64,000 nucleotides of DNA from Candidatus Nanopelagicales bacterium (lineage in GTDB: Bacteria > Actinomycetota > Actinomycetes > S36-B12 > CAIYMF01): positions 1 to 64,000 of the forward strand of contig JAFIHG010000018.1 of the NCBI GenBank assembly GCA_017848795.1. The letters run 5' to 3'. Shown piece by piece: positions 3,136 through 13,749 of the stretch. Every line of letters begins with the position of its first letter. The first letter of the stretch is position 1. Both the position numbers and the translations under genes were made by a program. The notes below the pieces were generated by a model that did not search any database, was not told the DNA's origin, and worked only from the letters and a program-made list of their open reading frames with translations.

Positions 3136-4152
3136 TCAGACCCGGCGTCTGCGGCGTACGACGGTGTCCAGCGCGACCGAGGCGATGATCACGACACCGA
3201 TGACGATCGTCTGCCAGAACGACGACACGCCCGCGAGGATCAGGACGTTCTGCAGCGTCGCGATCAGCAGCACCCCGACCAACGTCCCGAGCATCGTCCC
3301 GGACCCGCCGAACAGCGCGGCCCCGCCGATGATGACGGCGGTGATGACGAGCAGCTCCAGACCGACCCCGGTCGTGCCCTGGACGTAGAGCAGGAACGAC
3401 AGCCCGACAGCGCCCGCGAGCCCGGCGAGGACACCCTGGATCACGAACGACATCACGCGGACCCGGGCGGTTGCGATCCCGCACAGCCGCGCCGCCTCGC
3501 GACTGCCACCGACCGCATAGGTGTGGAAGCCGAACTTGGTGAAGCGCAACAGGAACCCGCCGACCAGGACGGCGAGCAACATCAGGATCAGCTGCATCGG
3601 GATACCGAACGGGCGGCCGTTGCCGAGGTAGGCGAAGCCCTCGATGTTCGGGATGGTCTGGTCGAGGCTGATCGGCGCGGCGTTCGTCATCAGCAGCGCG
3701 ATCCCGCGGAACACGCTCAACGTCCCGAGCGTGACGATGAAGCTGGGCAGGCCCAGCCCGACGGTGATGACACCGTTGACCAGGCCGCACAGTCCGCCGA
3801 CGACCAGCCCGAGAAGCAGCGCCACCGGCCACGCGACCTCGGCCTGCAGCAGCATCCCGACGCACATGCTCACCAGGACGTAGATCGAGCCGACGCTCAG
3901 GTCGATCTCGCCGGCGATGATGACGAACGTGGCGCCGACCGCCATGATCCCGATGAGCGACGCCTGCTGACCAACGTTGAGCAGGTTGTCGCTGCTGCGG
4001 AAGCCGTCGGTGCCGAAGATGCCGTAGACGCAGAGCAGGGCGAGCGCGAGGATCACGCCGAGCTCGCGCTGGCGGATCACCCGGTCGACCATGCTCCGGG
4101 TCGTACGGGGGCCGGCAGGCGGCGTGCTCACGGGGGGTACGGCGGTCTGCAT
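3136..4152 (-). CDS. Sugar ABC transporter permease (RbsC/BPD_transp_2 family)
   Basis: A 338-residue integral membrane protein with about eight to ten hydrophobic segments. The segment GEIDLSVGS (around residues 100-108) is the EAA-like conserved region of ribose/xylose/galactose-type permeases (Pfam BPD_transp_2). It forms the membrane channel with the ATPase encoded immediately upstream at 4196-5707 and the lipoprotein at 5704-6759; all three are on the minus strand, divergent from the catabolic genes starting at 7098. The start is the ATG at 4152, 43 bases after the ATPase stop; an internal ATG at 4092 is less likely because it removes the cytoplasmic N terminus. Confidence 0.9.
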   Translation of the reverse strand: MQTAVPPVSTPPAGPRTTRSMVDRVIRQRELGVILALALLCVYGIFGTDGFRSSDNLLNVGQQASLIGIMAVGATFVIIAGEIDLSVGSIYVLVSMCVGMLLQAEVAWPVALLLGLVVGGLCGLVNGVITVGLGLPSFIVTLGTLSVFRGIALLMTNAAPISLDQTIPNIEGFAYLGNGRPFGIPMQLILMLLAVLVGGFLLRFTKFGFHTYAVGGSREAARLCGIATARVRVMSFVIQGVLAGLAGAVGLSFLLYVQGTTGVGLELLVITAVIIGGAALFGGSGTMLGTLVGVLLIATLQNVLILAGVSSFWQTIVIGVVIIASVALDTVVRRRRRV

Positions 4153-4195: not shown

Positions 4196-5707
4196 TCACG
4201 CTGGGCTCGCGGCTACGGACCGGGTGGCGAGCGCCATCACCTCTTGCTCGGTCGCGGTACGCGCATCGACGGCACCGGTGACCTGACCGCGGCTGAGGAC
4301 CACGATCCGGTCGCAGACCCGCAGCAGCTCGGGCAGGTCCGAGGAGGACATCAGGACGGCGGCGCCGCTGCGCGCCACGTCGACGAGACGGTCGTGGATC
4401 TCCGACTTCGCCCCGACGTCGACGCCGCGTGTCGGGTCGTCCAGGAGCAGCAGGCGGGGCTCGCGGGCGAGCCAGCGGCTGAGGATGACCTTCTGCTGGT
4501 TGCCGCCGGAGAGCCCGGTGACGACACCGCCGGAGCTCCCGCGGACGTCGTACTCGGCGAGCCGCGCCTTACCCATGCGACGCAGCCGGCGGTGATTGAC
4601 CAGGCCGAACCGGGACGAGGTCTCGACGTCGAGCACCGTCGCATTGTCGTTGACGGAGAGGTCGGGGAACAGCGCCTGCGAGCGTCGTTCGGCAGGCACG
4701 TAGCCGATCCCGGCACGCATCGCGTCCCGCGGCGAGCGGACACGCAGGCGCACCCCGTCGAGCCGCACGTCACCGGTCGCGGGTACGGCGCCGAAGAGTG
4801 CGGCGACGAGGGCGTTGCTGCCGGAGTCGGGAAGGCCCGCGACGCCGACGATCTCGCCGGCGCACACGGTCAGCGACACGCCGCTGAAGGCGGCAGCGGA
4901 GAGGTTCGCGACCTCGAGCAGGGGTGAGCCGACCGTACGGCCGTCGTCGCGCACAGCAGCGGCGAGCTCGCGCCCGACCATCGCCGAGATGAGCCGGTCG
5001 GTCGTGACCTCCGCGGCATCGAACGATGCGACGTGCCGGCCGTCGCGCAGCACGTGGACCAGGTCGGCGAGCTCGATGATCTCGGGAAGCCGGTGGGAGA
5101 CATAGAGGATCGTCGTGCCCCGGTCGCGCAGCCGGCGCAGCAGCGCGAACAGCCGCGACGCCTCGTTCGGCGTGAGAGAGGTCGTGGGCTCGTCGAGGAT
5201 CAGCACCCGGCAGTCTCGGGCGAGTGCCCGCGCGATCAGGACGAGCTGCTGCTCGGCCACCGACAGCAGGCCGGCGTCCTGACGCGGGTCGATGGGGGTG
5301 TCGATCTGCTCGAGCAGCGCCCGGGTCTGCTCGTTCATCCGGCGCCGCGACGGCAGCACGCCGGGTTCCCTGCCGAGCAGCACGTTCTCGGCGACGGTGC
5401 GGTCGCGGCACAGCGCGATCTCCTGTGGCACGAGCGCGATCCGGTGCTCGTGCAACATCTGGCTCGGCGAGTAGCCGCTGACCGCCGTCCCGGCGACGGT
5501 CAGCGTGCCGGAGTCGGGACGCTGCAGCCCGGCCATGATCGTCATGAGCGTCGACTTGCCGGCGCCGTTCTCGCCGAGCACCGCCGTGATCTTGCCGGGC
5601 GGGAAGTCGAGGCTGACGTCGTTCAGCGCCTGGACTCCGCCGAAGCGCTTGCAGAGCCCGCTCACGCGCAGCGTGAGCGGGCTCTGCAGCAGGGTGTCTT
5701 CCGTCAT
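4196..5707 (-). CDS. Sugar ABC transporter ATP-binding protein, two ABC domains (RbsA/MglA type)
   Basis: A 503-residue protein with two fused nucleotide-binding domains, the layout of CUT2 monosaccharide importers. The first has Walker A GENGAGKST, signature LSVAEQQLV and Walker B ILDEPTTSL. The second has a degenerate P-loop (GLPDSGSNAL) but intact LSGGNQQKV and LLLDDPTRGVDV. One canonical and one degenerate site is normal for this class. The start ATG overlaps the stop of the binding-protein gene as ATGA, so the two are translationally coupled. It would energise uptake of the substrate of the adjacent ribokinase/RbsD operon. Confidence 0.93.
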   Translation of the reverse strand: MTEDTLLQSPLTLRVSGLCKRFGGVQALNDVSLDFPPGKITAVLGENGAGKSTLMTIMAGLQRPDSGTLTVAGTAVSGYSPSQMLHEHRIALVPQEIALCRDRTVAENVLLGREPGVLPSRRRMNEQTRALLEQIDTPIDPRQDAGLLSVAEQQLVLIARALARDCRVLILDEPTTSLTPNEASRLFALLRRLRDRGTTILYVSHRLPEIIELADLVHVLRDGRHVASFDAAEVTTDRLISAMVGRELAAAVRDDGRTVGSPLLEVANLSAAAFSGVSLTVCAGEIVGVAGLPDSGSNALVAALFGAVPATGDVRLDGVRLRVRSPRDAMRAGIGYVPAERRSQALFPDLSVNDNATVLDVETSSRFGLVNHRRLRRMGKARLAEYDVRGSSGGVVTGLSGGNQQKVILSRWLAREPRLLLLDDPTRGVDVGAKSEIHDRLVDVARSGAAVLMSSSDLPELLRVCDRIVVLSRGQVTGAVDARTATEQEVMALATRSVAASPA

Positions 5708-6759
5708 CCCTCAGGGGTTGTCGTGTCGACGTTGCTCTTGTCGACGAGGAGCGCCGGCATGATCTTCGTCTCCGGCGGCGTGCCGTTCTCCAGGTAGTCC
5801 TTGATCATCTCGATCGCCGTGAAGACCTGGCCGACCGGGTCCTGGCTCAGTGCGAAGGCGATCGTGCCCTTCTTGATGTAGTCGAGCGTGGCCTGCAGGG
5901 CATCGGTGCCGATCACCACGACCTTGCCCGACTTGCCCTCCTTCTCGGCCCACTTCGCCGCCCCGACGATGCTGCAGCAGTCGACGCTGGCGATGGCGAG
6001 CGCGTCCGGGTTGGCCGTCATCGCGTTCTGGATCGCGTTGTACATCTGGGCCGGTTCCATGCCGGTGTTGACCGGGCCGACGAACTCGAGGTCGGGGTTG
6101 TCGCCGAGCCCTTCCTTCAGCCCGTCCATGCGCTCCTTGGACCAGCCGGCCGCGGTGTCGACCGAGATGGCGACGACCTTGCCCTTCTTGCCCTGCAGGG
6201 TCTCGGCCAGCTTGCTGCCCTCTTCCTTGCCGAAGGCGGTGTTGTCGGCACCGACGAACGCGAGCTGCTTGGAGTTCGGCTGGTCGGTGAAGGCCGAGAC
6301 GAACGGGATGCCCGCGTCGAACGCCTGCTGGATCACCGGCTTGAGCGAGTCGACGTTCACCGCGGCGACGACGATGCCGTCCACCTGCTTCTGCGCGATG
6401 AGCGTCTGGATCAGCGAGACCTGGTCCTCCGCCTTGCCGGTCGGGGGTCCCTGCAGCTCGGCGTCGACCCCGAGATCGGCCACCGCCTTCTCGACGCCGG
6501 CCTTCTGCGCCGCCGTGTACGAGCTGGACAGGTCGTTGGTGATGTAGACGAACTTCAGCTTCTGCCCGGACGCGACGTGGTCCTTGATGTAGTCGGCGAG
6601 CTCGAAGCCGGCGAGCGTGCCGGTCGCCGACGCGGACGGTGAGGAGTCGGTCGGGGTGCCGTCCGTCGCCGGCGTCGAGGAGGAGCTGCCGCCACACGCC
6701 GCGAGGACGAGGGACGCAGCACCGAGCGCCGCGACCACGGCGACCCTTCTTCTGAGCAT
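5704..6759 (-). CDS. Sugar-binding lipoprotein of the ABC importer (Peripla_BP_4 family)
   Basis: A 351-residue secreted protein. A lipoprotein signal peptide with lipobox LAAC (residues 18-21) is followed by a Ser/Thr-rich linker to about residue 48, then a two-lobed periplasmic-binding-protein fold of the ribose/galactose type. It should be anchored outside the membrane and deliver a monosaccharide-like ligand to the permease. It contains an unusual CC pair near residue 258 (ASVDCCS) that might be a disulfide. It is the first gene of the minus-strand importer operon. The ligand cannot be read from the sequence; the ribokinase/RbsD neighbours suggest a pentose or a related compound. Confidence 0.9.
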   Translation of the reverse strand: MLRRRVAVVAALGAASLVLAACGGSSSSTPATDGTPTDSSPSASATGTLAGFELADYIKDHVASGQKLKFVYITNDLSSSYTAAQKAGVEKAVADLGVDAELQGPPTGKAEDQVSLIQTLIAQKQVDGIVVAAVNVDSLKPVIQQAFDAGIPFVSAFTDQPNSKQLAFVGADNTAFGKEEGSKLAETLQGKKGKVVAISVDTAAGWSKERMDGLKEGLGDNPDLEFVGPVNTGMEPAQMYNAIQNAMTANPDALAIASVDCCSIVGAAKWAEKEGKSGKVVVIGTDALQATLDYIKKGTIAFALSQDPVGQVFTAIEMIKDYLENGTPPETKIMPALLVDKSNVDTTTPEG

Positions 6760-7097
6760 TTATGACCTCCGACGAGGGCTATCCGGCACCGCCCTGTGGA
6801 GATGCCTGGTGGCTGTGGATGATCGTAGACAACCTGTCACATAGTCAAGCACGTCACCGAACCGTTATGGTCCGTGTCGCAATCCTCTGGCCGGCCGCAC
6901 CCGCGATCCTCCCAGGCCGTGGACCGGATGGGAAATCTGCCTGTGGCGAGGCCGGTTTGACGGCTGCTCGGCATGTGCTCCGGGCCGCGGTCCCGTCGAG
7001 AGCACATGCTTGCGGCGCCTCCCCCGGCGCGTTACAGTCCCCGAGCAACCCCCTGTGGACCACCCAGTACAAATCCACCCGGTACGAATGAGGTGCG
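6760..7097. promoter_or_regulatory. Divergent control region between importer and catabolic operons
   Basis: This 338-base gap holds promoters for both operons. Toward the binding-protein gene, TTGACT (6847-6842) and TACGAT (6826-6821) lie 15 bases apart, with a small dyad GACA-ACC-TGTC (6828-6838) between them. Toward the ribokinase gene, a larger inverted repeat pairs GCATGTGCTC (6971-6980) with GAGCACATGC (7000-7009). Either dyad could be the operator of the GntR-family regulator at 8505; which one is unknown. Confidence 0.5.
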
Positions 7098-7991
7098 ATG
7101 TCGGACATCGTCGTCGTCGGCAGCTACGGCGCCGGGCTCACGGTCCGGCTCGACCGGGCCCCGCTCGCGGGAGAGACTGTCGTCGGGTCCGACTTCACCG
7201 TGGCGCACGGCGGGAAGGGTTCGAACCAGGCCGTCGGCGCGGCCCGGCTCGGCGCTCGCACCTTGCTGTGCACGGCGGTCGGCGAGGACCACTACGGCGC
7301 CAACGCCTTCGAGCTGTGGAACGAGGAGGGTGTCGACACGAGCCTCACCCGCAGGCTGCCCGGCTCGACGATGGTCGGCGTCATCCTCGTCGACGCGCAG
7401 GGCGAGAACCGGATCGCGATCGTGCCCGGGGTGCTCGCGGACTTCGACGCGGGCGCCCTGCAGGGGCTCGCGGAACGGCTCGATGGCGTCGGCGTGATGC
7501 TCGTCGGGCTGGAGATCCCGGTCGCCACCGCCCACGAAGCGTTGCGGATCGGCCGGGCGGCCGGTGTCACGACCGTGCTGAACCCGGCACCTGCGCCGGT
7601 GGAGACACTGCCAGCGGGCATGCTCGAGCTTGTCGACCACATCACCCCGAACCGCACCGAGGCGGCGACGCTCACCGGGCTGCCGCCCGATACCGATCCG
7701 GCAGCGCTCGCCTCCCACAGCGTTTTCGACGCCGTGCCCAACGTCGTGCTGACGCTGGGCGCGGAGGGTGTCCTGCTGCGTGGGACCGACGGTCACGAGC
7801 GGGTGCCGGCGCCGGTCGTCGATGTGGTCGACACGACCGGCGCGGGTGATTCCTTCAACGCGGCGTACGCGGTCGCACTGTCCCGCGGCGAGGCGCCCGC
7901 GGCCGCCGCGAAGTACGCCGTACGCGCAGCGGCTTTCAGCGTCACTCGGCCGCTGCCGATCCCGTCGCTGCCGTACCAGAGCGATCTCTGA
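7098..7991 (+). CDS. rbsK: Ribokinase (PfkB family sugar kinase)
   Basis: A 297-residue PfkB-family kinase, typical ribokinase length. The N-terminal substrate motif HGGKGSNQA (around residues 38-46) and the C-terminal signature DTTGAGDSF (around 248-256, with the catalytic Asp) are intact. It phosphorylates a pentose, usually D-ribose to ribose 5-phosphate, in the cytoplasm. It is followed by rbsD 29 bases later and lies opposite a monosaccharide ABC importer, the classical ribose-utilisation arrangement. Because a DeoC-like aldolase ends the operon, a 2-deoxyribose kinase or a kinase for a modified pentose is an alternative. Family call is firm; substrate is inference. Confidence 0.88.
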   Translation: MSDIVVVGSYGAGLTVRLDRAPLAGETVVGSDFTVAHGGKGSNQAVGAARLGARTLLCTAVGEDHYGANAFELWNEEGVDTSLTRRLPGSTMVGVILVDAQGENRIAIVPGVLADFDAGALQGLAERLDGVGVMLVGLEIPVATAHEALRIGRAAGVTTVLNPAPAPVETLPAGMLELVDHITPNRTEAATLTGLPPDTDPAALASHSVFDAVPNVVLTLGAEGVLLRGTDGHERVPAPVVDVVDTTGAGDSFNAAYAVALSRGEAPAAAAKYAVRAAAFSVTRPLPIPSLPYQSDL

Positions 7992-8020: not shown

Positions 8021-8482
8021 GTGAAACGCTCCGGACTGCTCAACGCCGAGCTGTGCCATGCCATCGGCTCGCTCGGCCACGGCGACGAGCTGCTCGTGGT
8101 CGACGCGGGCTTCCCCGTCCCGCGCAGCGCCTGGCGGATCGACCTGGCGGTCACCGCCGACCTACCGGCCCTGCGCACCGTGCTCGACCTCATCGGCGAG
8201 GAGATGATCGTCGAGGGCATCACGGTCGCCGACGAGGTGAAGACGAACAACGCGCCACTGTACGAATGGCTCGACGCACGGTGGCCCACAGTCGAGGTCG
8301 GCACCGTGCCCCATACCGAGATGCTCGCCGAAGCCGCCGGGCGCGCCAAAGCGGTCGTACGCACCGGCGCGTTCGAACCCTGGGGCAACGTCCTGCTCGC
8401 GAGCGGCGTCGACGTCCCTGCCTGGTTCACCAATCCCGATGTCGTCGTGCCGGACTACTACCGCGACCGGCTGGGCTCATGA
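8021..8482 (+). CDS. rbsD: D-ribose pyranase (RbsD/FucU mutarotase family)
   Basis: A 153-residue RbsD/FucU-type mutarotase, near the family length of about 140. It keeps the conserved SLGHGDE segment with the catalytic His (around residues 17-23), DAGFPVP and the C-terminal RTGAFEPWGN. RbsD interconverts pyranose and furanose forms so the kinase receives the right anomer. The GTG start at 8021 has a clear AGGAG seven bases upstream. It sits directly after the ribokinase gene and before the GntR regulator, consistent with one transcript. Confidence 0.9.
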   Translation: MKRSGLLNAELCHAIGSLGHGDELLVVDAGFPVPRSAWRIDLAVTADLPALRTVLDLIGEEMIVEGITVADEVKTNNAPLYEWLDARWPTVEVGTVPHTEMLAEAAGRAKAVVRTGAFEPWGNVLLASGVDVPAWFTNPDVVVPDYYRDRLGS

Positions 8483-8504: not shown

Positions 8505-9278
8505 ATGACCGTCGCGATCGACGAGCAGATCGAGGGGCTCGCGGCGCTGCTGAGCCGCACGTCTCCGGAGCCGCTGCACGACCAGATCTCGGGGATGCTG
8601 CGCCAGCGCATCGTCTCCGGGCGGTGGCCACCGCGGATGCGGTTGCCGAGCGAGCCGGAGATGGCGACCCTGCTCGGGGTCGCGCGCGGCACCATCCGCC
8701 GTGCGATAAAGACGCTGCTCGCAGAACGGCTGCTCGTCCAGCACCAGGGACGCGGCACTTTCGTGGCGTCGCAGATGCTCGAGCAGTCCTTCGCCCAGGA
8801 GATCATCTCGACCTCGGAGGCGCTCGACCGCGACGGCGTCCGCTACGACACCAAGGTGCTGCGGCGCGCGGTGGAGCTCGCCGCCCCGGCGGTCGCCGCC
8901 CACCTGCACCTGCTGGACCAGGAGGCGCAGGTCGTGGCGCTGCGCCGCGTGCGCTCGGTCGAGGGCGCGCCCGTGTTCGTCCTCGACAACTACGTGATCG
9001 CGTCGCTGTGCCCGGGCCTGGAGTCCGCCGACCTCGGCGGCCGCGCGCTGTTCACGGTGCTGGAGGAGGACTTCGACATCGTGGTCAGCGGGGTGCAGCG
9101 CACCTTCCAGGCACAGGCCGCCACTCCGGAGATCGCCCAGCTGCTCGAGATGGAGCCGGGTGAGCCGGTGCTGTACCTCGAACAGGTGTCGTTCGAGCCG
9201 GACGGCCAGCCGATCGAATACTCGGACGTGTGGATCCGCGGCGACAAGCTCCGCGTCTCCTCCTGGCTGGCCCGATGA
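8505..9278 (+). CDS. GntR-family transcriptional regulator (HutC/UTRA type)
   Basis: A 257-residue regulator. Residues about 25-90 form the GntR winged helix (LHDQISGMLRQRIVSG, LPSEPEMATLLGVARGTIRRAI), and about 100-250 match a UTRA effector-binding domain, placing it in the HutC subfamily. It should repress the importer and catabolic operons until a pathway sugar or sugar phosphate binds. The ATG at 8505 is preceded by GGAGG and removes a non-conserved upstream extension. Its position inside the operon implies autoregulation. Its operator is probably one of the dyads in 6760-7097. Confidence 0.9.
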   Translation: MTVAIDEQIEGLAALLSRTSPEPLHDQISGMLRQRIVSGRWPPRMRLPSEPEMATLLGVARGTIRRAIKTLLAERLLVQHQGRGTFVASQMLEQSFAQEIISTSEALDRDGVRYDTKVLRRAVELAAPAVAAHLHLLDQEAQVVALRRVRSVEGAPVFVLDNYVIASLCPGLESADLGGRALFTVLEEDFDIVVSGVQRTFQAQAATPEIAQLLEMEPGEPVLYLEQVSFEPDGQPIEYSDVWIRGDKLRVSSWLAR

Positions 9279-9319: not shown

Positions 9320-10258
9320 ATGGACGACTACATCGATCCAGGCGCGGCGAAGGTGCTGGCGGACGCGGCGGGGATACCCGACGCCAAGGACTGGTGGCAG
9401 ATGACGCCGGCCGAGGCGCGCCAGACGATGGCCGACGCCGGGGCGCTCATGCGCGAACCGGTGCAGGTGGCGCACGTGCGCGACCTGGTGATCCCCGCCG
9501 AGCACGGCGAGCTCTCTGCCCGGCTCTACCGCCCCCACGACCGGCCCGCGCCGTTCGTCGTCTTCGTCCACGGCGGTGGCTGGGAGGTGGGCTCGGTCGA
9601 GATCTACGACCCGCTCGTACGCCGGCTCGCTGTCGAATCAGGCTGCGCCGTCCTGGCGTTCGACTACCGGCTCGCGCCCGAGCACCCGTTCCCGGCCGCA
9701 CTCGAGGACTGCTGCACCGCGATCTCCTGGGCCTACGACAACCTCGCCGAGCTCGGCGGTGACGACGGGTTCTTCGCGGTGGCCGGCGACTCCAGCGGCG
9801 GCAACCTGGCGGCCGGTGCTGCACAACGGTTACGCGACAACGGGTTCGCCGCCATCGACCACCAACTGTTGATCTACCCGGTCGTCACGCGCGACTTCGT
9901 CAGCCCCTCGTACGAGGCGTACGGCGAAGGGTTCGCGCTGACCACCCGGACCATGCAGTTCTTCTGGGACCTCTATGTCGGTGACGAGACGCCCCGCTAC
10001 GCCGACCTGCTGGCGGCGCCGCTCGAGGGCCTGCCGCCGGCGACCATCGTCACGGTCTCGCTCGACCCGCTGCGCAGCGAGGGCGAGGAGTACGCCGAAC
10101 GGCTCGCGGCCGCCGGGGTGCCCGCGACGCTCGTGCGGGTCTACGGCTTGCTGCACGGCGGTTGGCTCCAGGACAGCACCAGTGAGCGCGCGTACCAGTT
10201 CGGCCACGACCTCGCGGGGATCCTGCGCCGCGCGGCGGCGCGACCGGACGCCGGCTGA
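9320..10258 (+). CDS. Alpha/beta hydrolase, HSL/family IV esterase
   Basis: A 312-residue cytoplasmic esterase of the hormone-sensitive-lipase group. The oxyanion-hole motif HGGGW (around residues 81-85) and the nucleophile motif GDSSGGN (around 156-162) are intact, with a C-terminal LHGGW segment likely carrying the catalytic His. A GGGAGGAAG ribosome-binding site precedes the ATG. It lies 41 bases after the GntR gene and 50 before the dioxygenase gene, so it probably belongs to the same operon and may de-esterify or open a lactone of the pathway substrate. The actual ester is unknown. Confidence 0.87.
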   Translation: MDDYIDPGAAKVLADAAGIPDAKDWWQMTPAEARQTMADAGALMREPVQVAHVRDLVIPAEHGELSARLYRPHDRPAPFVVFVHGGGWEVGSVEIYDPLVRRLAVESGCAVLAFDYRLAPEHPFPAALEDCCTAISWAYDNLAELGGDDGFFAVAGDSSGGNLAAGAAQRLRDNGFAAIDHQLLIYPVVTRDFVSPSYEAYGEGFALTTRTMQFFWDLYVGDETPRYADLLAAPLEGLPPATIVTVSLDPLRSEGEEYAERLAAAGVPATLVRVYGLLHGGWLQDSTSERAYQFGHDLAGILRRAAARPDAG

Positions 10259-10308: not shown

Positions 10309-11079
10309 ATGCTCAGCGCTGAGCAACTGAGCCAGTACGAAGCAGAGGGATTCGTCATCATCCCGGGGCTGCTGCAACCGGATGAGGTGACGGCCTTCCG
10401 CGACCGGGCGCGCAGCGACCTGCGCGGTGCGGCAGAGTCCGAAGGTCTGATGGCCAAGGGCGACACCGAGGGCAACACCACGCTGCTGAAGATGTGGTAC
10501 CGCGCGGACGACAGCTTCTACGGCCGGGTCGCCCGCGACCAGCGGCTGGTCGACATCGCCCGGCAGATCATCGGGCGCGACACCTACCTCTACAGCCACA
10601 AGATGACGATGAAGGAACCGCGCATCGGCGGCGCCTGGGAGTGGCACCAGGACTACGGCTACTGGTACCAGAACAAATGCCTCGCGCCGGACATGCTCAG
10701 CATCTGGCTGGCGCTGGACGACTCCACCCGCGCGAACGGCTGCCTGCAGGTGCTGCCGCGCTCGCACCGCCTGGGCCGGCTCGACCACGACCGGGTCGAC
10801 GGGCAGACGGTGGTGGACGCCGAGTACCTCGCGGCGGCGCTCGAGCGGTTCGACCTGCAGTACGTCGAGATGGATGCGGGGGACGCGCTCGTGTTCGACT
10901 GCAATCTGCTGCACCGCTCGGACGCCAACCGCAGCGACGGCCCGCGCTGGGGCTACATCGCGTCGTACAACGCCGTCGACAACGAGCCGTTCCGGCACGT
11001 GCGCGAGTACGGCCGGTACGAAGAGCTGGTGCCGGTGCCCGCCGGAAGCTTCCGGGACGCCGACGCGATCCCCGTCTGA
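10309..11079 (+). CDS. Phytanoyl-CoA dioxygenase (PhyH) family protein
   Basis: A 256-residue Fe(II)/2-oxoglutarate dioxygenase of the PhyH superfamily. The iron ligands are visible as the HxD of WHQDYGYW (around residues 109-116) and a distal His in LLHRSDANRS (around 201-210), whose Arg would bind 2-oxoglutarate. Such enzymes hydroxylate or demethylate small metabolites. The stop shares a base with the start of the alcohol dehydrogenase gene (TGATG), indicating tight coupling, so the hydroxylated product may be the dehydrogenase substrate. A TAGGAG sequence precedes the ATG. Substrate unknown. Confidence 0.87.
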   Translation: MLSAEQLSQYEAEGFVIIPGLLQPDEVTAFRDRARSDLRGAAESEGLMAKGDTEGNTTLLKMWYRADDSFYGRVARDQRLVDIARQIIGRDTYLYSHKMTMKEPRIGGAWEWHQDYGYWYQNKCLAPDMLSIWLALDDSTRANGCLQVLPRSHRLGRLDHDRVDGQTVVDAEYLAAALERFDLQYVEMDAGDALVFDCNLLHRSDANRSDGPRWGYIASYNAVDNEPFRHVREYGRYEELVPVPAGSFRDADAIPV

Positions 11080-12158
11080 TGCGCCAGGCGCCGGCCGTCG
11101 TCCTCGAGGCGTATGGCCGTCCGCCGGTGCTGCGCGAGGTGAGCATCGCGGACCCCGGAGCGGACGAGGTCCTCGTCGGCGTACGTGCCAGCGGCGTCTG
11201 CCGCACCGACCTCGCGGCGGTACGTGACGCGCGCGCGGTCCCGGTGGTGCTCGGGCACGAAGGCGCCGGGGTTGTGCTCGCGGCCGGCGCGGCGGTCCGG
11301 ACGGTCGAGCCGGGGGACCACGTGGTCGTGAACTGGCAACCCAAGTGCGGCCGGTGCCGGTACTGCGTGAGCGGGCGCCGGGAGTTCTGCGACGGCGTCC
11401 GCGGGACCGCCGCGCCGCGGGTGCACCACGGGGGCGAGCCGCTCGCGGTGATGCTGAACGCAGGCACGTTCTGCCCCTTCGCTGTGGTGCCGGCCGCCGG
11501 GGTGGTCAAGGTCCGTCCGGATCTGCCGTTCGCCGCAGCCGCGCTGCTGGGGTGCGCCGTTGCGACCGGAGTCGGCGCCGCCCTGTACGGCGCGCGGATC
11601 CAGCCGGGCGACACCGTGGTGGTGCTCGGTGCCGGCGGGGTGGGACTGAACGCGGTGCAAGGAGCGCGGATCGCCGGAGCCGGACGGATCATCGTCACCG
11701 ACCACGACCCCGAGCACCTCGCGCTCGCCGGCCGGCTCGGCGCGACCGACCTGATCGCCGCCGCCGACGACGTGCGGGGTGCCGTACACGACCTCACGGC
11801 CGGGCTCGGCGCGGACCACGTGCTGGAGGCGGTCGGCGCCGCGCAGCTCGTCGAGCTCGCGGTCTCCCTGCTGGCCCGCGGCGGCACCGTGACGTTGCTC
11901 GGTGCCACCGCACGCGACGCGGTGGCCGGGTTCTCGCCCCGCACGCTGCTGAGCCGCCAGCAACGGATCCAGGGCTGCATCTACGGGAACATCGCGCCCG
12001 AACGCGACCTGCCGCTTTTCGCGGACTGGTACCTGCAGGGCCGGCTCGAACTCGACCCCTTCGTCTCTCGCACCATCGCACTGGCCGAGGTTCCGGAGCT
12101 GTTCACCGAACAGAGCGGATCGGGCGTGCGGACCGTCGTCGACCTGGAGGCAGCATGA
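11079..12158 (+). CDS. Zinc-dependent alcohol dehydrogenase (MDR family, class III-like)
   Basis: A 359-residue medium-chain dehydrogenase. Catalytic zinc ligands appear in SGVCRTD and GHEGAG (around residues 40 and 62), the four-Cys structural zinc loop is complete (CGRCRYCVSGRREFC, around 90-104), and the Rossmann motif GAGGVGLNAVQ lies near 185-195. It oxidises an alcohol with NAD(P), probably the product of the upstream dioxygenase; reduction of the aldehyde released by the DeoC-like enzyme is an alternative. It overlaps both neighbours (TGATG upstream, ATGA downstream). Confidence 0.9.
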   Translation: MRQAPAVVLEAYGRPPVLREVSIADPGADEVLVGVRASGVCRTDLAAVRDARAVPVVLGHEGAGVVLAAGAAVRTVEPGDHVVVNWQPKCGRCRYCVSGRREFCDGVRGTAAPRVHHGGEPLAVMLNAGTFCPFAVVPAAGVVKVRPDLPFAAAALLGCAVATGVGAALYGARIQPGDTVVVLGAGGVGLNAVQGARIAGAGRIIVTDHDPEHLALAGRLGATDLIAAADDVRGAVHDLTAGLGADHVLEAVGAAQLVELAVSLLARGGTVTLLGATARDAVAGFSPRTLLSRQQRIQGCIYGNIAPERDLPLFADWYLQGRLELDPFVSRTIALAEVPELFTEQSGSGVRTVVDLEAA

Positions 12159-13021
12159 CGTATCACCGGCTCGAGGAGCTGCGACCCGACCAGCTCGAAC
12201 GCCGGCTCGCGGAGAAGCCGGTGCTGGTGCTGCCGTTCGGCACCATCGAGTGGCACAGCTACCACCTCCCGCTCGGGCTCGACGGGCTCGTCGCCGACGA
12301 CGTCGGCTCCCGGATCGCAGCGGAGTGCGACGCGGTGCTCGCGCCCACGTCGTACTGGGCGGTCGGCGGGGTCCCGTACCCGCACACCCTCAATCTGCCC
12401 ATCGACCTGGTCGAGCCGCTGCTGCGGACGCTGTTCGAACAGTTCGCCGAGATGGGGTTCGAGGTGATCGTCGGGTTCACCGGTCACTTCGGGCTCGACC
12501 AGACTCTCGCGCTCAAGCGTGCGGCGGTCGAGGTGATGCGACGGTCCCCCGCGACCGTGGTCCCCTTGACCGCGTACGACGTGGTGACCGACCTCTACCC
12601 CGGCGATCACGCCGCGGTCGGCGAGACGTCCATGCTGCTGGCGAGCCGTCCCGAGCTCGTCGACCTGCAGGCCGTACCCGACGGACAACCGCTGGACGGC
12701 GTGCTCGGCGACGATCCGCGCGGTCGGGCCGATGGTGCACGGGGTGCCGAGATCCGCGACGCCGTCGTGAGCCGTACCGCCGCGGTCGTGGACCGGCTGC
12801 TGGGTGCGGAACGGCTCGCCCGCCGCCAGTACGTCGAGGCGCTCGCCGCCGGGGTCGCTGCGCTCGCCGACCTGGCCGACCGGCGCAGCCGGGCACCCAA
12901 GAGCACCGTGCCGCCGGTCGCCACGCCGACCTATCTCTCGCACTGCGGTGCACTCTGGGCAGGGGACTACGGAAGCGCTAGACAGTTTGCGGAGCAGAAG
13001 CGGCTCGATCCCGCAATCTGA
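12155..13021 (+). CDS. Creatininase-family metal-dependent amidohydrolase
   Basis: A 288-residue protein of the creatininase fold, whose members include creatinine amidohydrolase, MftE and FAPy deformylase ArfB. Metal-ligand motifs are recognisable though altered: IEWHSYHLPLGLD (around residues 27-39) stands for the usual EQHGxHLPxxTD, and GHFG (around 111) for GHGGN. The late DDPRG..ADGARG segment matches the family's substrate loop. It overlaps the dehydrogenase by ATGA. Cleavage of a cyclic amide or C-N bond in the pathway is the simplest idea, but the residue changes leave the reaction open. Confidence 0.82.
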   Translation: MTYHRLEELRPDQLERRLAEKPVLVLPFGTIEWHSYHLPLGLDGLVADDVGSRIAAECDAVLAPTSYWAVGGVPYPHTLNLPIDLVEPLLRTLFEQFAEMGFEVIVGFTGHFGLDQTLALKRAAVEVMRRSPATVVPLTAYDVVTDLYPGDHAAVGETSMLLASRPELVDLQAVPDGQPLDGVLGDDPRGRADGARGAEIRDAVVSRTAAVVDRLLGAERLARRQYVEALAAGVAALADLADRRSRAPKSTVPPVATPTYLSHCGALWAGDYGSARQFAEQKRLDPAI

Positions 13022-13065: not shown

Positions 13066-13749
13066 ATGCTTGCCGCACTCCTCGCGCCCGCCCAGCTCGC
13101 CCCCTACATCCAGCACACCCTGATCCGCGCCGACGCGACGGAGCAGCAGGTCCGCGCCCACGTCGAGGAGTGCCTCGAGTACGGCTTCGACGCGGCGATG
13201 GTCCCCGGCCCATGGGTGCCGCTCGCGGCGGACATCCTGCGGGGGAGCAATGCCGTCGTCGCGTCCGCGCTCGACTTCCCCACGGTCGGGGTCATGACGA
13301 GCGCCGGAAAGGCCGCGGAGGCCGCCGAGCTGGTGCGCCTCGGCGCTGAGCAACTCGACATGGGCGTGCAAATCGGGTGGCTCAAGAGCGGGCGCTACGC
13401 CGCGTTCCGCGACGACATCGCCGGTGTGGTGGCGAGCGGAGTGCCGGTAAAGGTGATGCTCGAATTGCCCCTGCTGACCGCGCCCGAACGCGAGACGGCG
13501 ATCGCGCTCGCGGTCGAGGCGGGCGCTGCGTACCTCAAGAACGCCAGCAGCGGCACCGTGGAAACGGCCAACGTCGAGAGCATCCGCTATCTGGTGGAAC
13601 GCGCCCCGGAAGGCGTTCTCGTGAAGGCCTCCGGTGCGATCACGTCGTACGAGCAGACGGTCGCGTTGCTCGACGCCGGAGCCGCGCTCGTCGGTACCAG
13701 CGCAGGAGTCGCCATCGTCGACGGCTGCGGCTCGAGCGAGAGCTACTGA
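13066..13749 (+). CDS. deoC: DeoC-like class I aldolase with altered phosphate-binding residues
   Basis: A 227-residue TIM-barrel aldolase of the DeoC family (deoxyribose-phosphate aldolases are about 220-260). The Schiff-base Lys is in YLKNASSG, the second active-site Lys in VLVKASGAIT, and the Asp in LDMGVQIG aligns with DERA Asp102. However, IDHTL is IQHTL, and residues that hold the 5-phosphate in E. coli DERA differ: KTSTGK is KNASSGT, GGxR is GAIT and the C-terminal GASS is GTSA. The family is clear, but a substrate other than deoxyribose 5-phosphate is likely. A 44-base gap with a TGTAGCAT -10-like element precedes the ATG, so it may have its own promoter. Confidence 0.8.
   Translation: MLAALLAPAQLAPYIQHTLIRADATEQQVRAHVEECLEYGFDAAMVPGPWVPLAADILRGSNAVVASALDFPTVGVMTSAGKAAEAAELVRLGAEQLDMGVQIGWLKSGRYAAFRDDIAGVVASGVPVKVMLELPLLTAPERETAIALAVEAGAAYLKNASSGTVETANVESIRYLVERAPEGVLVKASGAITSYEQTVALLDAGAALVGTSAGVAIVDGCGSSESY

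Follow-up and report, generated by a model that had tools for sequence, protein, structure and literature searches.

A DeoC-like aldolase in an actinobacterial sugar operon, a putative 2-O-methylribose-5-phosphate aldolase

The open reading frame at positions 13066–13749 (plus strand) of a 64,000-nucleotide stretch of Candidatus Nanopelagicales DNA (contig JAFIHG010000018.1, positions 1 to 64,000; hereafter the window) encodes a protein resembling DERA (DeoC, EC 4.1.2.4), and raises the question of which sugar such an enzyme would cleave. A preliminary description of the sequence had recognized a DeoC-like frame with the catalytic residues of DERA, and both points stand. In a profile search the protein scores 153.3 bits against the deoC model TIGR00126 (cut-off 117.3). 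Its AlphaFold model is a TIM barrel (pLDDT 94.6) for which the best PDB matches in a structure search are DERA or putative DERA structures, among them L. brevis DERA (4xbk; TM 0.88, 35% identity). The catalytic residues K167, K201, and D102 (E. coli numbering) are retained in 57/57 aligned members of a subfamily that includes the window aldolase; tier 1 of this subfamily comprises 43 sequences including that of the window (53–75% identity), and tier 2 comprises 14 (35–41%). The window genome possesses a second, canonical DeoC on a different contig (at C39), with the motifs KTSTGK, KPAGGIR, and RIGASS; the window aldolase has the DERA fold and is not the genome's housekeeping DERA. Because the NCBIfam deoC model takes it above the cut-off, subfamily members are probably annotated as DERA. 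A plasmid search with the aldolase returned solely ordinary deoC-annotated matches, at below 60% identity.

The aldolase gene shares one strand with seven others, and a sugar ABC transporter is encoded divergently:
3136–4152, minus strand: sugar ABC transporter permease, with relatives at several subfamily loci
4196–5707, minus strand: RbsA-like sugar ABC transporter ATPase, with relatives at several subfamily loci
5704–6759, minus strand: sugar ABC transporter binding protein, divergent from the operon, with relatives at subfamily loci
7098–7991, plus strand: ribokinase-like PfkB kinase with N14G, D16G, and A98G (E. coli RbsK numbering), a putative 2-O-methylribose kinase
8021–8482, plus strand: RbsD/FucU-type ribose pyranase (122.5 bits, cut-off 93)
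8505–9278, plus strand: GntR/UTRA regulator, start codon by ORF inspection, also present at most relatives' loci
9320–10258, plus strand: alpha/beta hydrolase (Abhydrolase_3), not conserved in relatives
10309–11079, plus strand: PhyH-type Fe/2-oxoglutarate dioxygenase, not conserved in relatives
11076–12158, plus strand: Zn-dependent alcohol dehydrogenase, closest to the NDMA-dependent and the mycothiol-formaldehyde dehydrogenases but below their cut-offs
12155–13021, plus strand: creatininase-family hydrolase, not conserved in relatives
13066–13749, plus strand: DeoC-like aldolase of 227 residues, of the Gln16, Met47, Ala73, KNASSG subfamily; putative 2-O-methylribose-5-phosphate aldolase

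Between the divergent transporter and kinase genes lies a perfect 10-nt inverted repeat, GCATGTGCTC, with arms 19 nt apart (6971–7009), possibly a GntR operator or a hairpin.

The preliminary description had centered on a loss of phosphate-site residues, which was dropped as the main point after a control with 33 ordinary sequences. The window aldolase and 56 relatives were aligned with E. coli DeoC and 32 other DeoC sequences, 33 ordinary DeoC in total; 30 of the 32 are the best TIGR00126 matches from a search of the window's phylum. Among the substitutions reported earlier, G205 to Ala, R207 to Thr, and S239 to Ala are present, but K172 to Thr is not, as position 172 is the Gly of KNASSG and the Thr occupies position 173. 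In the ordinary DeoC set, position 172 is Lys in 2 sequences and Phe in 29, position 207 is Arg in 22, and position 239 is Ser in 17 and Ala in 10; since all three vary, K172, R207, and S239 are not diagnostic. L. brevis DERA (4xbs), a proven DERA, itself carries Phe172, His207, and Ala239, and is thus altered at three of the four positions in question. The fourth, position 205, is Gly in 33/33 ordinary DeoC and also in 25/43 tier-1 members, while the other phosphate-site positions G204, G236, and S238 are kept in the window aldolase. The four positions named earlier therefore give no support for a loss of phosphate binding.

Other positions distinguish the subfamily consistently. The replacement of D16 by Gln, noted earlier for the window aldolase, extends to all 57 members, as do C47 to Met and T170 to Ser; V73 is Ala in tier 1 and Thr in tier 2, T168 is Asn or Gln throughout, and G171 in tier 1 is Ser (41) or Ala (2). 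The window aldolase carries C47M, V73A, T168N, S169A, T170S, G171S, I139M, and R234L, diagnostic changes absent from the preliminary description. Among ordinary DeoC, position 16 is Asp in 32/33, the remaining sequence having a trimmed end and reading MIDLTTL in full, and position 47 is Cys in 25/33. The subfamily is monophyletic and separate from DERA (support of 98 for tier 1, 100 for tier 2, and 99 for the two together). Relative to DERA, the window aldolase retains the fold, the Schiff-base Lys, the second Lys, and the Asp, but differs in Gln16, Met47, Ala73, Asn168, Ser170, and Ser171 and in its separate clade, and the subfamily differs in its surroundings, where an altered kinase occurs with an altered hydrolase or RbsD. 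Good support for the earlier view that the enzyme differs from ordinary DERAs comes from the separate clade, the invariant Gln16, the canonical DERA elsewhere in the genome, and the failure of a published homologue to complement deoC (PMC6278475).

Several of these positions are close to one another in the active site. In E. coli DERA, D16, T18, C47, and K201 line a single pocket (PMC6016325); with propanal as the donor, the stereogenic carbon examined has T18 packed against it (PMC8403123). The change of D16 and C47 in 57/57 members and the reduction of V73 to Ala in tier 1 fit a bulkier nonpolar group at C2, and altered specificity at the C2 side of the sugar is the most likely consequence predicted from the sequences. 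Two of the changes have been made in the E. coli enzyme: G171S lowers activity on deoxyribose 5-phosphate (PMC7671976), and C47M confers resistance to acetaldehyde with 60% of activity left, C47 being dispensable (Dick 2016, PMC6016325). The subfamily shares Met47 with this mutant, but here the residue is natural, invariant, and combined with Gln16 and further pocket changes; it predicts that subfamily aldolases may tolerate aldehydes.

The gene neighborhoods of relatives provide a further view of the substrate. Within 7 kb of the aldolase gene at the 43 tier-1 loci, a kinase is encoded at 41, a GntR regulator at 36, a nucleoside hydrolase at 31, and RbsD at 8. A sugar kinase at 41/43 loci indicates that the substrate is probably phosphorylated. 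The nucleoside hydrolase and RbsD co-occur at 0/43 loci (Fisher p 3e-6, only a guide because tier-1 loci are related and several contigs end near the aldolase gene), and the exchange of one for the other requires at least 4 switches on the tree. Such a pattern would be expected if some cells generate the furanose internally and the others import the pyranose. The window genome encodes no nucleoside hydrolase anywhere, and uptake of the free sugar would therefore be needed. An aldehyde dehydrogenase was considered as a conserved partner and rejected, being present at just 2/43 tier-1 loci. At the Sphaerimonospora locus (L050), the tier-1 aldolase gene follows FGGY kinase and Zn-dependent alcohol dehydrogenase genes on the same strand, while a ribokinase and a nucleoside hydrolase with normal motifs lie nearby on the opposite strand. 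Loci from Microbacteriaceae and related organisms (L018, L023, L034, L037, and L038) carry a downstream ECF transporter, ABC ATPase, MFS transporter, and second nucleoside hydrolase, some also with a uridine-phosphorylase-like gene, and resemble a larger nucleoside-use cluster.

The kinase that accompanies the aldolase is itself reshaped. The window kinase scores 253.3 bits against the NCBI ribokinase model TIGR02152, below the cut-off of 299.65. The ribose ligands of E. coli RbsK are N14, D16, G42, K43, N46, E143, and D255 (PMC9604405), of which N14 and D16 are absent from the window kinase (Gly/Gly). Across kinases from subfamily loci, N14 and D16 are replaced by Gly/Ala and A98 by Gly in 48/48, the L050 kinase being left out of this count (T14/D16 motif, opposite strand, ~3 kb from the aldolase gene). 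In 22 other ribokinase relatives, D16 and A98 are kept in 22/22 and N14 in 20/22; the window genome also encodes another ribokinase relative (L114), whose motif is normal. Selection on 2-deoxyribose has likewise yielded RbsK N14 mutations (PMC6452873), so the altered kinase does not by itself point to a methyl group in particular. The hydrolases are similarly altered: most of those checked in the clusters have DTDTAQDD in place of the DxDPGxDD motif of E. coli RihB and RihC, although those compared at L005, L023, and L050 retain the DxDxGxDD form.

Published work on related clusters supplies biochemical context. Aucynaite (2018) cloned a soil hydrolase/DeoC-like pair (RK9NH/RK9DPA) via selection on 2′-O-methyluridine; the hydrolase fully cleaved uridine and 2′-O-methyluridine but left deoxyuridine, deoxycytidine, and thymidine uncut, and the DeoC homologue failed to restore growth of an E. 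coli deoC mutant on thymidine (PMC6278475), a failure that could also reflect poor expression. The synteny described, rather than the sequence, places RK9DPA (MK014213) putatively in the aldolase clade. The gene order reported for Intrasporangium (kinase, aldolase, GntR, hydrolase; PMC6278475) matches loci L003, L006, L008, and L013. That study also cites an Agromyces 2′-O-methylribonucleoside hydrolase whose 97% homologue in Microbacterium resistens is encoded in a cluster with an aldolase and a ribokinase (PMC6278475), and our M. resistens locus (L016) carries a subfamily aldolase followed by a hydrolase, as described. The likeness to the RK9DPA/RK9NH cluster extends to the DeoC-like gene beside a nucleoside hydrolase in relatives and to the Intrasporangium order at several clade loci, whereas the window operon differs in having no nucleoside hydrolase and in carrying RbsD and four further enzymes together with a sugar ABC transporter. 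A 2025 paper mentions just a potential gene cluster (PMC12709175). Our literature search found no paper reporting a 2-O-methylribose-5-phosphate aldolase reaction or an aldolase assay on a 2-O-methyl sugar.

2′-O-methylation is a common RNA modification, and the aldolase most likely breaks down methylated ribose left from RNA recycling. We consider the aldolase a class I (Schiff-base) DeoC-fold enzyme whose substrate is probably, if narrowly so, 2-O-methyl-D-ribose 5-phosphate. In the window organism, 2-O-methylribose would be imported free and converted by RbsD into the furanose, whereas in relatives the nucleoside hydrolase would free the furanose inside the cell. The reshaped RbsK-like kinase would then phosphorylate O5, and the aldolase would form a Schiff base with C1 and cleave C2–C3 to yield D-glyceraldehyde 3-phosphate and methoxyacetaldehyde. 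A 2-O-methyl group should block isomerization to ribulose 5-phosphate, so that retro-aldol cleavage would be a sensible exit. The fold, catalytic residues, clade, diagnostic residues, neighborhood, altered kinase, and altered hydrolase motifs were seen directly, and the cleavage of 2′-O-methyluridine by the cluster hydrolase and the failure of the aldolase homologue to replace DERA come from the literature (PMC6278475); from these we infer the identity of the sugar in the window organism and the reaction and products of the aldolase. Whether the enzyme is a dedicated 2-O-methylribose 5-phosphate aldolase that uses methoxyacetaldehyde as donor aldehyde, and so completes a bacterial route for RNA's methylated ribose, is in our view an even call.

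Other substrates were weighed against the same evidence. It is rather unlikely, though credible, that the aldolase cleaves a plain or another 2-substituted pentose 5-phosphate, such as ribose 5-phosphate, which would give glycolaldehyde and glyceraldehyde 3-phosphate. RbsD, a ribokinase-like kinase, and a ribose-type transporter in the operon region are all consistent with this, the published cluster hydrolase frees ribose as readily as 2-O-methylribose (PMC6278475), and the residue evidence fits any C2 group. However, ribose 5-phosphate enters metabolism without an aldolase, and the kinase lacks two ribose ligands while its counterpart in the same genome (L114) keeps the normal motif. The non-phosphorylated substrate proposed in the preliminary description, with phosphate binding lost, is very improbable: Ala205 in the window aldolase and the absence of K172 and R207 are in its favor, but K172, R207, and S239 vary in ordinary DERAs, S238, G204, and G236 are kept, and a kinase gene accompanies the aldolase at nearly every tier-1 locus (41/43).

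A DERA that has diverged yet still serves deoxyribose salvage, partnered by a deoxyribokinase-like kinase, would account for the DeoC fold, the catalytic residues, and the score above the TIGR00126 cut-off, and could draw on the emergence of RbsK N14 mutants on deoxyribose (PMC6452873) and on the dispensability of C47, with C47M at 60% activity (PMC6016325). We nevertheless judge it improbable. Gln replaces D16 in 57/57 subfamily members, and Ser or Ala replaces G171 in 43/43 of tier 1, the former a change at an otherwise conserved Asp and the latter one that, as G171S, cut the activity of E. coli DERA on deoxyribose 5-phosphate (PMC7671976); the homologue failed deoC complementation and the cluster hydrolase ignores deoxynucleosides (PMC6278475). 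A simple deoxyribose operon is weakened by D16Q and these published results (PMC6278475), as well as by the canonical DERA elsewhere in the window genome.

The remaining operon genes bear on the window organism in particular. Among the 43 tier-1 loci, genes for PhyH, the alpha/beta hydrolase, and the creatininase are almost confined to the window, and no close PhyH relative was found at E 1e-35 among 396 genomes of the phylum; the PhyH gene is overlapped by the dehydrogenase gene. Its presence is suggestive because PhyH-type dioxygenases demethylate 2′-O-methyl nucleosides (PMC12709175). The window operon thus shares a PhyH-type dioxygenase with the FJS/PHYHD1 demethylases of that study, but the window protein is absent from relatives and, in a PDB search, ectoine and leucine hydroxylases were nearer than PHYHD1. 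This putative demethylase could act on the aldolase's sugar or on methoxyacetate. An L-glucose/inositol route, hinted at by the creatininase and dehydrogenase genes, was set aside: IolN and IolM matches fall far below cut-offs (27 vs 245; 139 vs 450), and neither gene is conserved beside the aldolase.

Little is known of what becomes of released 2-O-methylribose, and the catabolic pathways have been called largely unexplored (PMC12709175). A matched kinase and aldolase would supply a testable route. A review lists DERA and fructose-6-phosphate aldolase as the sole enzymes joining two aldehydes (PMC8403123); if the 2-O-methylribose 5-phosphate assignment is true, the enzyme would count as a class I aldolase that links two aldehydes and takes a donor distinct from acetaldehyde, a new class of donor of value for synthesis.

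Two further groups were observed. The tier-2 sister clade (14 loci: L044–L049 and L051–L058), from actinobacteria and some proteobacteria, has Gln16 and Met47 and always occurs with an altered kinase (Ala14/Ala16) and RbsD, many of its loci lying near enolase-superfamily dehydratases, aldo-keto reductases, and fuconolactonase-like hydrolases. In DeoC-like proteins at L087, L089, L091, and L092, which score above the deoC cut-off, Glu/Gln replaces the Schiff-base Lys167, while Asp102 and Lys201 are kept.
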